A stretch of 21,171 bases of DNA from a virus, in the IMG/VR virus record IMGVR_UViG_3300009154_000333, positions 1-21,171 of that record. The stretch is one strand, 5' to 3'. Shown here piece by piece: positions 10,726 through 15,282 of the stretch. The notes under the pieces were generated by a model. The model was not told the origin of the DNA. It saw nothing but the letters and a program-made list of their open reading frames with translations, and did no database searches. The stretch's first letter is position 1; every line of letters starts with the position of its first letter. A program made the translations under genes and the position numbers.

Positions 10726-11067
10726 ATGCCAGCATCTCCTCCTTCGGTCACGATCACGCTCGGCAAGGACGTGACCGTCACGGGCGTCACCAACGCTCGC
10801 TCTGCCACCGTCACGAACTCGGCTTCGGACGTTGACGTCACCAAGTTTGGCGACACAAGCCGCAAGTTCCGCAAGGCTCTCATCGAGCAGACGATTGAGC
10901 TTGAGTGCGTTGACGCTCCAGGCGTCAGCATCGGCGGCACGTTCACAATCGGCGGCACGCAGACCGGCAACGCCACCTACGTCGTCACGAACATCGCTCA
11001 GAGCCAGCCGCTTGACGGCATCATCACCTACACCGTTTCCGGCAGCCGCACGACCGTTTCTGCCTAA
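10726..11067 (+). CDS. Tail-tube-like protein, paralogue 1 of 3
   Basis: 113 residues, first of three related small genes. The core is VTITLGKDVTVTGVTNARSA, then SDVDVTKFGDTSRKFRKALI, TIELECVD, a GxxFTIGGTQTGNATYVV strand, and a C-terminal PLDGIITYTVSGS. The D(V/I)DVTKFGD...RKFRKAL segment and the closing beta strand fit the tail-tube fold seen in siphovirus major tail proteins. It is preceded by an 89-base gap with a candidate regulatory motif, so it may head a transcription unit. Its two neighbours share the ITLGKD start and the 'DG.(I/V/A)T(Y/F).(V/L)' ending. Probably a tube subunit; which of the three is the major one cannot be told. Confidence 0.65.
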   Translation: MPASPPSVTITLGKDVTVTGVTNARSATVTNSASDVDVTKFGDTSRKFRKALIEQTIELECVDAPGVSIGGTFTIGGTQTGNATYVVTNIAQSQPLDGIITYTVSGSRTTVSA

Positions 11068-11088
11068 CACACACAGGGAACCGCACAC

Positions 11089-11409
11089 ATGGCTATTACT
11101 CTTGGCAAAGACGCAGGCTCCGCTCCTCCGTTTGGCACAGGCGTCATCTCGGCGACCTACACGGAGGAGTGCGAGACGATCGACATCTCCAACCGTTCCA
11201 ACATCGGCGGTTCGTCGGGTGCTCCTGGCCGGAAGGTTAGCAAGGCCGGATTCATTACGAAGACGTGGGAAATCGAGTGCCATGACCCGACCGGACTGAT
11301 CACAAGCCTTGAGGCGTCTGGCTCATCGTTCTCTGTCATGAGCGTGACGGAGAATATCGGCGTGGATGGTGCTGTGACGTTCAACGTGACGGCCAAGGAA
11401 TTCACCTGA
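11089..11409 (+). CDS. Tail-tube-like protein, paralogue 2 of 3
   Basis: 106 residues, ATG at 11089 with AGGGAA upstream. It opens MAITLGKDAG, then VISATYTEECETIDISNRSN, GRKVSKAGFITKTWEIECHD, a short SSFSVMSVTENI strand and GVDGAVTFNVTAKEF. The order of strands follows paralogue 1 (T-x-D-(V/I)-(D/S)... R/K...K... (T/W)(I/L)E(L/I)EC.D ... DG.(I/V)T(Y/F).V). It is slightly shorter. Its stop overlaps the start of the third copy (TGATG). Likely part of the tail tube, or the tube cap, together with the other two. Confidence 0.62.
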   Translation: MAITLGKDAGSAPPFGTGVISATYTEECETIDISNRSNIGGSSGAPGRKVSKAGFITKTWEIECHDPTGLITSLEASGSSFSVMSVTENIGVDGAVTFNVTAKEFT

Positions 11410-11771
11410 TGGCGATCACGCTGGGGAAGGATTGCACCATCTCTCTCGATGGTGGCTACATCGCCAGCGCTCGCAACGTGACGCTGACAGAGTCGGCTCG
11501 CACCATCGAAGTCAATCCGTACGGCAGCCGGTACGCAGCTACCTACAGCACGGGCTACGAATGCACGGTGAGCGTTGAGCTCAACGACGTCGAGGGGCTT
11601 GGCACGGCATTCCAACGAATGCACACGGGCGGCACGTTCATGGTCAATGGCGGTGCCGCTGGGTTCTCGTTCCTGGCCGTGCTAACCGGAATCACCGAGA
11701 CAGACCCCGTGGATGGCGTGGCGACGTTCACGCTCGAGGGCAAGATGACCGACCCGAGGCTTGTGAGGTAG
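11409..11771 (+). CDS. Tail-tube-like protein, paralogue 3 of 3
   Basis: 120 residues, start overlapping the previous stop by one base. It begins MAITLGKDCTISLDGGYIAS, then ARNVTLTESARTIEVNPYGS, RYAATYSTGYECTVSVELND, HTGGTFMVNGG, FLAVLTGITETDPVDGVATF and TLEGKM. The 'ARNVTLTESARTIEV...YGSRY...YSTGYE' version looks the most like the family I associate with planctomycete prophages. Three bases separate its stop from the tail chaperone start, the normal position of the major tail protein. On position alone this copy is the best candidate for the main tube subunit. Confidence 0.66.
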   Translation: MAITLGKDCTISLDGGYIASARNVTLTESARTIEVNPYGSRYAATYSTGYECTVSVELNDVEGLGTAFQRMHTGGTFMVNGGAAGFSFLAVLTGITETDPVDGVATFTLEGKMTDPRLVR

Positions 11772-11774
11772 CAG

Positions 11775-12332
11775 ATGCGTGAGTTCAGGGACGACCAGGG
11801 CAGGCCGTGGCAGGTGGCGTTGACCGTTGCTTCTGCGCTGCGTGTCCGCGACAACGTCACCGTTGACGTCGTGAACGAGCAGACCGGCGAGCGGAAGACC
11901 GTGCCATTCGACATGGTCGATGCCGCCAACATCTCGCAGACCTTCCAAGTGCTGCGAAGCCAGTACGCCAAGATCGGCGAGATCCTTTACGCACTGCTTA
12001 CCAAGCAAGTCGAGACCAAGGGACTGAGCAGAGAAGACTTCCTTGACGGTCTGCGTGGCGATTCTTTGGACGCTGCGACGAAAGCACTTGAGGCAGAGCT
12101 TGTCGATTTTTTCCCGCAGCGCCTCCGCAAGATGATCTCGTTGCTCGCTCAGAAAATGGACGAGGTCGCAAACGAGATGCTGGGTCGAGCGGAGGCGGGA
12201 CTGGAGAAGGCGACGATCGAGAGTCTGGCAGGAGCGTCTGGGACGCAATCTGGGAAGCCGCAGGAATCCTCGGAGTCCATCCCGGCAAGTGGACCGTCAG
12301 ACAACTCTTCGCCGCTCGCGACAGCCGCCTAG
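11775..12332 (+). CDS. Tail assembly chaperone, G (short) product
   Basis: 185 residues. In lambda-like phages the G protein and its frameshifted GT form coat the tape measure protein and guide tube assembly. Here the N-terminus REFRDDQGRPWQVALTVASA is followed by VRDNVTVDVVN, MVDAANISQTFQVLRSQYAK, LYALLTKQVETKGLSREDFL, the DSLDAATKALEAELVDFFPQ segment, a helical region (about 115-155) and a disordered Ser/Pro/Gly-rich tail to the TAG. It sits between the tail-tube and tape measure genes, the standard place. The disordered tail overlaps a well-formed T coding region in the -1 frame, so this ORF is probably the short product of a frameshifting pair. Confidence 0.75.
   Translation: MREFRDDQGRPWQVALTVASALRVRDNVTVDVVNEQTGERKTVPFDMVDAANISQTFQVLRSQYAKIGEILYALLTKQVETKGLSREDFLDGLRGDSLDAATKALEAELVDFFPQRLRKMISLLAQKMDEVANEMLGRAEAGLEKATIESLAGASGTQSGKPQESSESIPASGPSDNSSPLATAA
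12107..12113 (+). promoter_or_regulatory. Candidate -1 slippery heptamer T TTT TTC
   Basis: In the G frame the codons read GAT TTT TTC CCG, giving X XXY YYZ with the right phase for simultaneous -1 slippage. The -1 frame is then open from here to the tape measure start. It is the only canonical heptamer I found in the 12092-12332 overlap. A weakness: the -1 translation just downstream (Pro/Gly/Arg/Ser-rich) does not look native until about 12239, so slippage further downstream at a non-canonical site is possible. Confidence 0.4.
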
Positions 12333-12514
12333 AGCATCAGTGGTGGCATACCGCCAACCTGTTGGCACAGGCAGCGAATATAAACCGAGACAAGCACAGC
12401 CCAAGAGTCGATCCGCGAAAACTCAACCCATACGCCAGACAGCCAAAGCCGAGACAAGCCACGCCGGAAGATCTCGCTAGGCTGTTCGGCAAAGATTGGC
12501 AGAAGCACGTATGA
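12113..12514 (+). CDS. Tail assembly chaperone T domain, reached by -1 frameshift
   Basis: This reading frame, one base back from G, is open from 12092 to the TGA at 12512-12514 but has no ATG, GTG or TTG before about 12360. Its second half is clearly protein-like: VWDAIWEAAGILGVHPGKWT, VRQLFAARDSRLEHQWWHTA, NLLAQAANINRDKHSPRVDP, RKLNPYARQ, then ATPEDLARLFGKDWQKHV. The 'R.L..a...r....W.ht..LLA..aN.nRD......P..lNP' pattern is that of the T half of phage GT chaperones. Its stop overlaps the tape measure ATG (ATGA). Slippage at 12107-12113 would give a fusion of 246 residues. The listed start marks the first codon after that site. Confidence 0.72.
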   Translation, partial: PAAPPQDDLVARSENGRGRKRDAGSSGGGTGEGDDRESGRSVWDAIWEAAGILGVHPGKWTVRQLFAARDSRLEHQWWHTANLLAQAANINRDKHSPRVDPRKLNPYARQPKPRQATPEDLARLFGKDWQKHV

Positions 12515-15282
12515 GCGCGGGAGCAGTCAGAGCCGGCGGCGTGTTCGTTGAGATCGGTGCCGATCCGAGAAAGTTCTTCTCGGCGCTCGGCAAGGTCAAC
12601 GGGCAGATTGGCAAGCTTGGAGCGTCAATGTCGTCCGCTGGGACGAAAATGGCTGCGATGGGCGCAGGCATCGTCGGCCCGATCTTTGCGTCTGCGATGG
12701 CATTTTCCAACGTAGGCAGTGCGCTCAATGACATGAGCAAGCGCACGGGCGTGGCATCGGAATCGCTGTCTGTGTTGCAGTTTGCAGCTGAACAGACCGG
12801 CACAGACATGGCTGGCGTTGAAACAGCACTCAAGAAGATGCAGAAGGCCATCTTCGCAGCTGGCAACGGAAGCGAAGAGGCTGCAAAAGCTCTTGCTTTA
12901 GTTGGGCTGTCTGCTGCGGATTTGTCTGGGCTCTCAGCTGACCAGCAGATTGGGAAGATCGCCGACGGGTTGATGGCGATTCAAGACCCTGGCACGCGGG
13001 CCGCAGTTGCCATGCAGATATTTGGCAAGTCTGGCACTGACATCCTGCCGATGCTGGAAGGCGGCTCTGCTGGCATGGCAGCTTTTGCAGCCGAGGCAAA
13101 GCGGCTTGGGCTCGTCATGGACTCTGACACGGCTGCAAAGGCTGACGCACTCGGGGACGCAATCGACGCCGTAAAAGCGTCAATGAAAGTGGCATTTATC
13201 CAAGTTGGTGGGGCTGTGGCACCGATGCTGACGCAGCTGGCGCAGGGGCTCGCCATCGTCGCCGCAAATGTCGGGAAGTTCATCAGCGAAAATCAGGCGC
13301 TTGTGGTGTCAGTACTCAAGGGCGGTGCGGCTCTTGTGATGATTGGCAGCGGCGTGGGTGTGCTTGGGCGCTCTATCAGCCTGGCGTCTGTGTCGTTTAG
13401 CACTCTTGGAAAAGCAGCCTCACTGGCTGTGTCTCCGCTGACGATGCTGATCGGCAGCGCCAGCGGCGTTGCCAAGAGCTTCACGATGGCGATGCCGCAG
13501 ACGCTCAAACTGGCGAACACAATCGGTTCCTCAATGCTTGGTGCGTCGGCGTCAGTCGTGTCATTCGCGTCAACGGCTGGAAGTTCACTCGCTGGATTTG
13601 CTGTGTCAGGGATACGCAGCGTTACGTCGTACGGAAATGCTTTGCAAGGTGTGTTTGCAAGTCAGTTTCGTATTGCACGGTTCATCGGGCAGTCGTTTGG
13701 CGAAGCAGCGGTCACGGCGTTTTCCAAGACGGCAATGTCAATCGGCGTGGTCAAGTCGGCAGTGAACTCAATCGGCAAGCCGTTAGTGTCGGCTGGTCGC
13801 GGCGTCCTTTCTCTCGCTGTTCAGATTGGGCAGCTTGCAATGCCGTTGGCGTCAGTGGCCGGGTCAGGCATGTCACGATTCGTGTCTGACATCGCTGGCG
13901 GCCTAGCGTTCACATACAAGTCTTTTGTTTGGTGGGCTACTGGTGCGTCAGCACGGATGGCACAGTACGCCGCGAGCCTTGCGGGTGCTACGGGCAAGAC
14001 GATCGCGTCAACCGCTGCGATGTCGGCAGCTTGGCTCGGCACGGCTGCTCGCGGCGTGGCTGCGTTTGTAGGCTCTGCCGTTGCTGGGATCGGTACATAC
14101 CTTGCCGCCACAGTGTTGGCTGTTGCCGGCTCTGTGGCGTCTGCCGCTGCGGTGGCAGCTGCGTGGCTGGCACCGCTGGCACCGCTGCTGCTCTTGTCTG
14201 CTGCCGCTGTTGGCGTCGGCGTTGCCGTCAAGCAGTTTGGCCCGCAGATCGCCGGTGCTTTCTCTGGGCTGGCTGGCTACGTGACCGAGGCTGGCGGTGC
14301 CATAGCTGGCGGCTTCTCGACCGCCGTCTCTGATGGCATCGTCGTCCTGGGCGACCTCGCCAAGACTGCCACGACCACATTCAACGGCGTCTACGAAGCC
14401 GTCGCTGCTGGTGATCTGTCCGGTGCAATGGACGTTCTGTGGGCTGGGCTCGTCGCAGGCTGGCTGCGTGGCACTGAAGCGCTGATGTCTTACGTTGACC
14501 CGTGGGTGGCAGCGTTCCAAGACGTCTTTACTAACATCGGCTCTGGCGTCGTCATCGCGTGGGACAAGCTCTACACCGACTCCGCTGCGATCTTGAACAC
14601 GATGGGAGCCTTCATCATGGGCTTCTTTGACAACATCGCCAACGGCGTCATGGCGACGTTCGACAACCTCGTGGCTGGCATCCAGATCGCGTGGACTCGA
14701 GTTCAGGGATTCATCACGGGTGCCAAGGACACGAAGGAACGAGTGCAGAAGATTAAGGACGCCAACGCCGCTCGAGCAGAGCAGCGGATGCAGGAGCGAC
14801 CTGGCGTGAACGCTCGCACAGACAAGGCTGCGGCAGAGAACGCACAGGCTGAGACGCAGAGGCAGCAGCGAGTTGGTGCCATCATGTCTGGTGCCGAGGC
14901 CGACAAGGCTGCAAGGCAGGCAGAGAATCAAAAGCGAGCCGACGACAGGCGTGCTGGAGTCGTGGCGGCAGAGGCCGTGCTTGGTGACTTGACGGCGAGA
15001 AAGCAAATCGAACGTGACGCAGCCAAGAAAGCGGCGGAAGAAATCGCAGCCACGACCGGAGCATCTGCGGCGTCTCCAGGCGAGAAGTCTGCGACGGCTG
15101 GTGCTGGTGCCGCTGGTGCTGAATCTGCCGTGAGCATGGGTACTGTCGCTGGCACGTTCTCGTCAACGAATCTCGGGCAGATATTTGGCGGAAGTTCGTT
15201 CGCAGAACGTACCGCGAAAGCTGCGGAAGAGACGGCGAGGAATACCCGCAAGATTGACGACGGTGGAAAGGTGGCAGCGTAA
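12511..15282 (+). CDS. Tail tape measure protein (TP901-type core)
   Basis: 923 residues from the ATG at 12511, which overlaps the T stop; an in-frame TTG at 12496 is less likely. The tape measure protein sets tail length and is ejected with the DNA. Residues 1-230 match the TP901 core family (FVEIGADPRKFFSALGKVNG, a MSKRTGVASESLSVLQFAAE segment, ALKKMQKAIF, LADGLMAIQ-like, QIFGKSGTDILPMLEGG, KADALGDAIDAVKASM). The middle is Ala/Gly/Val/Ser-rich with several hydrophobic helices around 495-575 (PLAPLLLLSAAAVGVGVAV). Residues about 738-845 are charged coiled coil (RVQKIKDANAARAEQRMQER). The C-terminus GTFSSTNLGQIFGGSSFAER, TAKAAEETARNTRKI is also typical. At 0.15 nm per residue this predicts about 140 nm. 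Confidence 0.9.
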   Translation: MSAGAVRAGGVFVEIGADPRKFFSALGKVNGQIGKLGASMSSAGTKMAAMGAGIVGPIFASAMAFSNVGSALNDMSKRTGVASESLSVLQFAAEQTGTDMAGVETALKKMQKAIFAAGNGSEEAAKALALVGLSAADLSGLSADQQIGKIADGLMAIQDPGTRAAVAMQIFGKSGTDILPMLEGGSAGMAAFAAEAKRLGLVMDSDTAAKADALGDAIDAVKASMKVAFIQVGGAVAPMLTQLAQGLAIVAANVGKFISENQALVVSVLKGGAALVMIGSGVGVLGRSISLASVSFSTLGKAASLAVSPLTMLIGSASGVAKSFTMAMPQTLKLANTIGSSMLGASASVVSFASTAGSSLAGFAVSGIRSVTSYGNALQGVFASQFRIARFIGQSFGEAAVTAFSKTAMSIGVVKSAVNSIGKPLVSAGRGVLSLAVQIGQLAMPLASVAGSGMSRFVSDIAGGLAFTYKSFVWWATGASARMAQYAASLAGATGKTIASTAAMSAAWLGTAARGVAAFVGSAVAGIGTYLAATVLAVAGSVASAAAVAAAWLAPLAPLLLLSAAAVGVGVAVKQFGPQIAGAFSGLAGYVTEAGGAIAGGFSTAVSDGIVVLGDLAKTATTTFNGVYEAVAAGDLSGAMDVLWAGLVAGWLRGTEALMSYVDPWVAAFQDVFTNIGSGVVIAWDKLYTDSAAILNTMGAFIMGFFDNIANGVMATFDNLVAGIQIAWTRVQGFITGAKDTKERVQKIKDANAARAEQRMQERPGVNARTDKAAAENAQAETQRQQRVGAIMSGAEADKAARQAENQKRADDRRAGVVAAEAVLGDLTARKQIERDAAKKAAEEIAATTGASAASPGEKSATAGAGAAGAESAVSMGTVAGTFSSTNLGQIFGGSSFAERTAKAAEETARNTRKIDDGGKVAA

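Follow-up and report, generated by a model that had tools for sequence, protein, structure and literature searches.

A probable programmed −1 frameshift joins tail chaperone-like G to T in a family of uncultured viruses

Introduction

How is a reading frame translated that lies between a tail chaperone-like gene and a tape measure gene, encodes a conserved domain and opens without a start codon? The question is raised by the window, that is, the whole stretch of DNA analysed, a 21,171-base IMG/VR virus record containing a capsid gene, tail fibre-like genes, three small tandem tail protein genes, G, the tape measure gene and later genes. The order along it is tail protein, G, T and tape measure and, as in phage lambda, two overlapping ORFs in the 0 and −1 frames stand between the tail protein and tape measure genes. 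In lambda-type systems the products G and GT are made at a low, fixed GT:G ratio, and neither protein is present in the virion. The initial annotation of this locus had judged a programmed −1 frameshift giving a GT fusion to be probable, a view that the invariance of the slippery heptamer and the avoidance of −1-frame stops described here strongly support. A programmed −1 frameshift at T_TTT_TTC that fuses G to T, as in phage lambda (mechanism reviewed in PMC5009743), is given a probability of about 95%; conservation of the site and the point of frame entry are read directly from the relatives, whereas the slippage itself we infer.

Genes around the frame switch

11409..11771, + strand: upstream tail protein, major tail protein-like (phrog_1407 major tail protein, E 1e-4)
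11775..12332, + strand: G, tail assembly chaperone-like, 185 aa, 0-frame product (ORF; homologues; AF2 model; directly upstream of T and tape measure)
12236..12514, + strand: T domain (VWDAIWEAAGILGVHPGKWTVRQLFAARDS...HV) and TGA stop (conserved across families; weak PF06223 matches of relatives, one above gathering)
12511..15282, + strand: tape measure protein (PHROG tail length tape measure matches; ATG overlaps the T stop as ATGA)

Homologues of G, with the conserved motifs F-D-W-RV and [E]LVDFFP, occur at more than 200 loci. The AF2 model of the protein is confident for residues 1-144 and has a pLDDT below 50 for residues 155-181; this low-pLDDT part, from about 12237, overlaps T and is modelled as disordered. 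By sequence, no family in Pfam, PHROGs or NCBIfam was matched by G, a fold search against PDB and BFVD folds gave no significant match (best tail-chaperone fold, E 0.12), and no relatives were found in cultured phages. The designation of G as tail chaperone-like rests on its position, the frameshift and its linkage to T.

Relative to G, the −1 frame stays open over 12092-12514, a length of 140 codons between stops, and contains no ATG, GTG or TTG until the TTG at 12362, inside the T domain, while its stop (TGA, 12512-12514) overlaps the tape measure ATG at 12511. The initial annotation had given the same limits for G (11775-12332) and for the open frame, had placed the first usable start no earlier than about 12360 and had ended T at the tape measure ATG, all of which is borne out, as is its warning that a start-to-stop ORF search misses T, which is unlisted at a length threshold of at least 60 aa. 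Relatives of T match mainly PF06223 (Phage_tail_T), mostly under the cut-off at 17-24.5 bits, and the T homologue of locus L267 reaches 34.5 bits, over the gathering cut-off of 25.9 bits; the T domain of the window itself matches no Pfam, PHROG or NCBIfam model. The best match in a fold search with T was the phage N15 'Tail assembly protein GT', at a non-significant E of 2.7, and a search for cultured-phage relatives of T gave only three matches, all at chance level. Judged from its relatives, the domain can be called weakly Phage_tail_T-like.

The next ORF downstream of T is at least 500 aa long in 83 of 87 viral relatives, and a start offset of −1 is seen in 98. The ATGA in which the end of T overlaps the start of the tape measure gene (12511-12514 in the window) also forms the T end of 125 of 149 relatives. 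Since T ends in ATGA over the tape measure start, translation of the tape measure may be coupled to the frameshifted ribosomes. Further upstream, at 10726-11771, three tandem genes of 106-120 aa share a (M)xITLGKD-like start and are probably paralogous tail tube-type proteins.

Among the matches in bacterial genomes, 28 of 29 lie in MAGs that their records label as planctomycete or related, a count that takes in one record labelled only 'uncultured bacterium' because its sequence groups with the rest. The host of the window virus is therefore probably a planctomycete, as far as these sequence matches indicate. The sole genome match from another named phylum is a partial T match (L289) on a short contig binned as Spirochaetes, an assignment that is possibly a binning error. 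Planctomycetota are a phylum with few cultured phages.

A slippery heptamer conserved in phase

12107..12113, + strand: slippery heptamer T_TTT_TTC (U_UUU_UUC; 92/92 unbiased contexts, 151/156 T-selected loci)

The heptamer, which the initial annotation had correctly placed in phase at 12107-12113, is read as X_XXY_YYZ over the G codons GAT TTT TTC. A search with G only returned 236 viral contigs, and among the best 80 of these 236, kept at 90-100% identity, the heptamer lies at the same place in all 79 scorable relatives, and no stop interrupts the −1 frame between it and the start of the tape measure gene. So that the heptamer itself was not a selection criterion, an unbiased search was made with a degenerate back-translation (GARNTNGTNGAYTTYTTYCCNCARMG) that does not require it; this retrieved 92 distinct contexts whose G identity to the window goes down to below 50%, and GAT TTT TTC is present in every one (92/92). 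When loci were picked by T-domain homology alone, the in-phase heptamer was found in 151 of 156 distinct loci. For a more distant set the count is 53/71 by script and 57/71 once four mis-framed cases are read by eye.

Heptamer-bearing loci fall into 42 clusters at 75% nt. In the rest of these G genes, GAT makes up 22% of Asp codons and TTT 26% of Phe codons, and the first T of the heptamer is retained though its codon varies, encoding D, G, H, V, S or A. Recurrence at the same place in 79/79, 92/92 and 151/156 cases is far beyond chance. The table of synonymous identity was built from loci selected for TTTTTTC, so that the 1.0 it gives for the codons of the heptamer arises by construction; the unbiased counts are 92/92 and 151/156.

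The point of frame entry

12104..12106, + strand: last place with a −1-frame stop in relatives, upstream bracket of frame entry (9/149 distinct relatives)
12113..12235, + strand: −1-frame linker of GT (PAAPPQDDLVARSENGRGRKRDAGSSGGG...; 0/777 stops; dual-coding with the C-terminal helix of G)

Where translation enters the −1 frame can be read from the use of stops, a potential −1 stop being a codon ending in T followed by a codon beginning AA, AG or GA. Upstream of the heptamer 501 of 2535 potential stops are used (20%), as compared with 0/1275 downstream over the whole overlap and 0/777 within the 114 nt that follow the heptamer. Moreover, in 9 of the 149 distinct relatives the last −1 stop ends one base before the heptamer, and the −1 frame opens exactly there. 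Stop usage and these nine abutting stops bracket frame entry to about 12105-12128, with the heptamer inside, and the bracket is the same in families with unrelated linker sequence.

The initial annotation had proposed aligning related phages over the overlap and had noted that the −1 protein looks native only from about 12239. The comparison agrees with a native look from about 12236-12239: variability at 0-frame third positions, measured as codon-position entropy, yields to variability at −1-frame third positions at about 12225-12240, close to where the pLDDT of G drops below 50 (about 12237). Because the G signal is dominant to about 12225 and the −1 frame after it, the stretch 12113-12235 is read as a translated but loosely constrained linker, which in the relatives is hydrophilic, R/G/D/S-rich and poorly conserved. 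The dual-coding overlap measures 219 nt.

These data also bear on the second option of the initial annotation, that ribosomes slip later, at a novel, non-canonical site. Were such a site near 12230-12250, GT would contain almost the whole of G, with the T domain coming straight after it. The native look of the G helix and of the T domain on either side of about 12236, and the poor conservation of the −1 protein before that point, would suit such a site. However, the −1 frame is already stop-free from the first possible site past the heptamer (0/777 in 114 nt against 501/2535, or 20%, upstream), the heptamer is invariant, and the entry bracket does not move in families with unrelated linkers. 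Stop avoidance downstream of the heptamer leads us to reject a later site as highly improbable. The same stop counts strongly support the first option, in which ribosomes slip early, at T TTT TTC, and a flexible linker follows.

The downstream hairpin and other candidate stimulators

12120..12197, + strand: predicted stimulatory hairpin (stem P1 12120-12128 / 12189-12197, starting 6 nt past the heptamer)

P1 is a 9-bp stem (CGCCTCCGC/GCGGAGGCG) that closes a long hairpin. Among 149 loci all nine pairs are kept in 108 and eight of nine in 7, with a C-G to G-C flip in 10 and with G-U changes, and the raised synonymous conservation of the two arms is seen in loci selected for TTTTTTC. The MFE of the 78-nt region is lower than that of synonymous-codon controls in most of 21 representatives. 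Permutation of codons within the gene gives a folding z of about −2 to −4.7 in the window's clade, and for the window itself (represented by L001, identical in G) the hairpin has p = 0.007 under permutation and 0.03 when codons are drawn. In L107 and L125, the most distant relatives, the hairpin does not exceed codon controls, and a dinucleotide-shuffle fold test on the window alone is not significant (z −0.35). Together, the codon controls and the pairing of P1 across loci support the stem well as a selected RNA structure in the window's clade, and the hairpin probably raises the slippage rate. A Shine-Dalgarno stimulator was also considered for the window and rejected: only 14% of its clade carry a 6-mer of this kind, and overall the codon controls are exceeded only marginally.

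A likely exchange of the frameshift signal in relatives

In a sister clade (L370-L441), homologous G/T pairs carry T_TTC_TGC in place of the heptamer. A degenerate search gave 61 distinct contexts of this clade, which form only 13 clusters at 85%; the tetramer T_TTC is invariant in them and the full T_TTC_TGC is present in 59/61. The codon preceding Phe stands for S, G, D or A, but its third base is T in 61/61, and elsewhere these residues seldom have T-ending codons (S 5/110, G 16/342, D 85/424, A 11/623). Use of −1 stops is 0/661 downstream versus 34/679 upstream. There is no hairpin excess in this clade (mean z −0.6), and GGAGGA stands 9 nt upstream in 58/61 contexts, whereas only 14% of the window's clade have any 6-mer of that sort. 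Two Planctomycetota MAG loci, L267 and L270, have A_AAT_TTT at the same place in G. Site variants are also seen in L276, L333, L340 and L338 (T_TTT_TCC, T_TTC_TCC and T_TTT_CTC), T_TTY being common to all.

In bacterial insertion sequences (IS), −1 signals are X_XXZ_ZZN heptamers or Z_ZZN tetramers accompanied by a Shine-Dalgarno sequence and/or a hairpin; U_UU.U_UU.C, used by IS elements, belongs to the class of motifs with the highest efficiency measured in E. coli, and the tetramer U_UU.C is known to be prone to shifting but to require a stimulator (PMC4066793). The window's clade, with U_UU.U_UU.C and a hairpin, and the sister clade, with U_UU.C and the upstream Shine-Dalgarno-like GGAGGA, resemble these elements, although the genes and their function are unrelated (tail assembly rather than transposase). 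It is reasonably likely that one homologous planctomycete-virus G/T pair has exchanged its frameshift signal in the course of evolution, between U_UUU_UUC with a hairpin, U_UUC with GGAGGA and, in two loci, A_AAU_UUU. The signal appears to have been re-tuned while the GT fusion was retained. If true, the G/T family would offer a natural series for testing the trade-off between motif strength and stimulator.

The variants also weigh against slippage of RNA polymerase on the T run, which would produce mRNAs with an extra U from which GT is translated without any ribosomal shift. Although six T's followed by C, invariant in the window's clade, would lend themselves to this, the same frame switch occurs without a long homopolymer, at A_AAT_TTT with its five T's (L267, L270) and at T_TTC_TGC with three T's (59/61 sister contexts). 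In addition, the codon phase of the motif is conserved, and the downstream hairpin together with the Shine-Dalgarno-like element of the relatives points to ribosomes. Transcriptional slippage is rejected on account of the variants that lack the T run, its chances being as slim as those of a later site. Independent initiation of T from a non-AUG or reinitiation start, for which the ATG of T in L287 (no G found upstream) and a GTG after the heptamer in 2/149 loci could be cited, is the least credible of all, as the other 147 of 149 heptamer loci have no ATG, GTG or TTG between heptamer and T domain and as it leaves heptamer invariance and linker stop avoidance unexplained.

The initial annotation had held that relatives with G and T in one continuous frame, or peptides from a T initiated on its own, would speak against frameshifting; no relative has the two joined or separated, apart from the odd L287. 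At that locus (L287:10001) the T domain is preceded by an ATG of its own and no overlapping G was found; a degenerate element or a faulty assembly could account for this.

Discussion

In the mechanism proposed here, a programmed −1 ribosomal frameshift at the heptamer, one message would give two products, G and GT. Most ribosomes would read G (185 aa), and a minority would slip back one base on U_UUU_UUC (12107-12113), while one tRNA-Phe occupies UUU in the P site and a second occupies UUC in the A site; both tRNAs would re-pair perfectly on UUU UUU and the ribosome would go on in the −1 frame. The predicted GT has 246 aa, made up of G residues 1-113 (...ELVDFF) and 133 −1-frame residues comprising the PAAPPQDDLVAR... 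linker and the T domain, and would end on the tape measure start codon. Its junction would read ALEAELVDFF/PAAPPQDDLVAR, and slippage at the heptamer would yield the tryptic junction peptide ALEAELVDFFPAAPPQDDLVAR. With 219 nt (73 codons) left between the heptamer and the G stop, GT would lack the last 72 residues of G and with them the C-terminal helix, retaining 113 of 185 G residues. The slippage rate and the stimulatory role of the hairpin are likewise putative. The hairpin, the host group and the loss of the helix in the fusion were absent from the initial annotation. The lambda G protein binds the tape measure and lambda T binds the tail tube protein, in a ratio of about 30:1 (PMC5009743); by analogy, the tape measure would here be coated by the G part of the fusion, and the tail tube protein would be recruited by the T part.

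The sequence characters of a lambda-type G/GT pair are found here: a 0/−1 overlap directly upstream of the tape measure gene, an in-phase slippery sequence in the overlap that is conserved in relatives, and a T without a start, with selection on the −1 frame from the heptamer on. As in lambda, T has no start in the −1 frame, the slippery heptamer is canonical and the T domain, judged from its relatives, is weakly PF06223-like. In contrast, descriptions of lambda place the shift close to the 3' end of g, whereas here it lies 73 codons before the G stop and the GT of the window swaps the C-terminal helix of G for linker and T. Compared with lambda, the window system also has U_UUU_UUC with a clade-conserved downstream hairpin, and a G without detectable sequence or fold similarity to known chaperones. 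The early shift site is a variation of layout, as it is the frameshift fusion, and not the distance to the G stop, that defines this kind. The G/T pair of the window most probably represents lambda-type GT frameshifting of an ordinary sort, in which the site comes early, the dual-coding overlap is long and the hairpin is specific to the clade.

In all, the analysis annotates a gene overlooked by ORF callers in hundreds of uncultured viruses, with a frame switch that seems to have been retained by a large unannotated family of related viruses and with Planctomycetota pointed to as hosts. Lambda-style GT frameshifting is thereby extended to a family in which the G protein is unrecognised, the shift comes early and 219 nt of overlap are dual-coding. 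The relatives provide evidence, drawn from sequence only, of signal turnover under a retained frame switch, which is testable in ordinary reporter assays.
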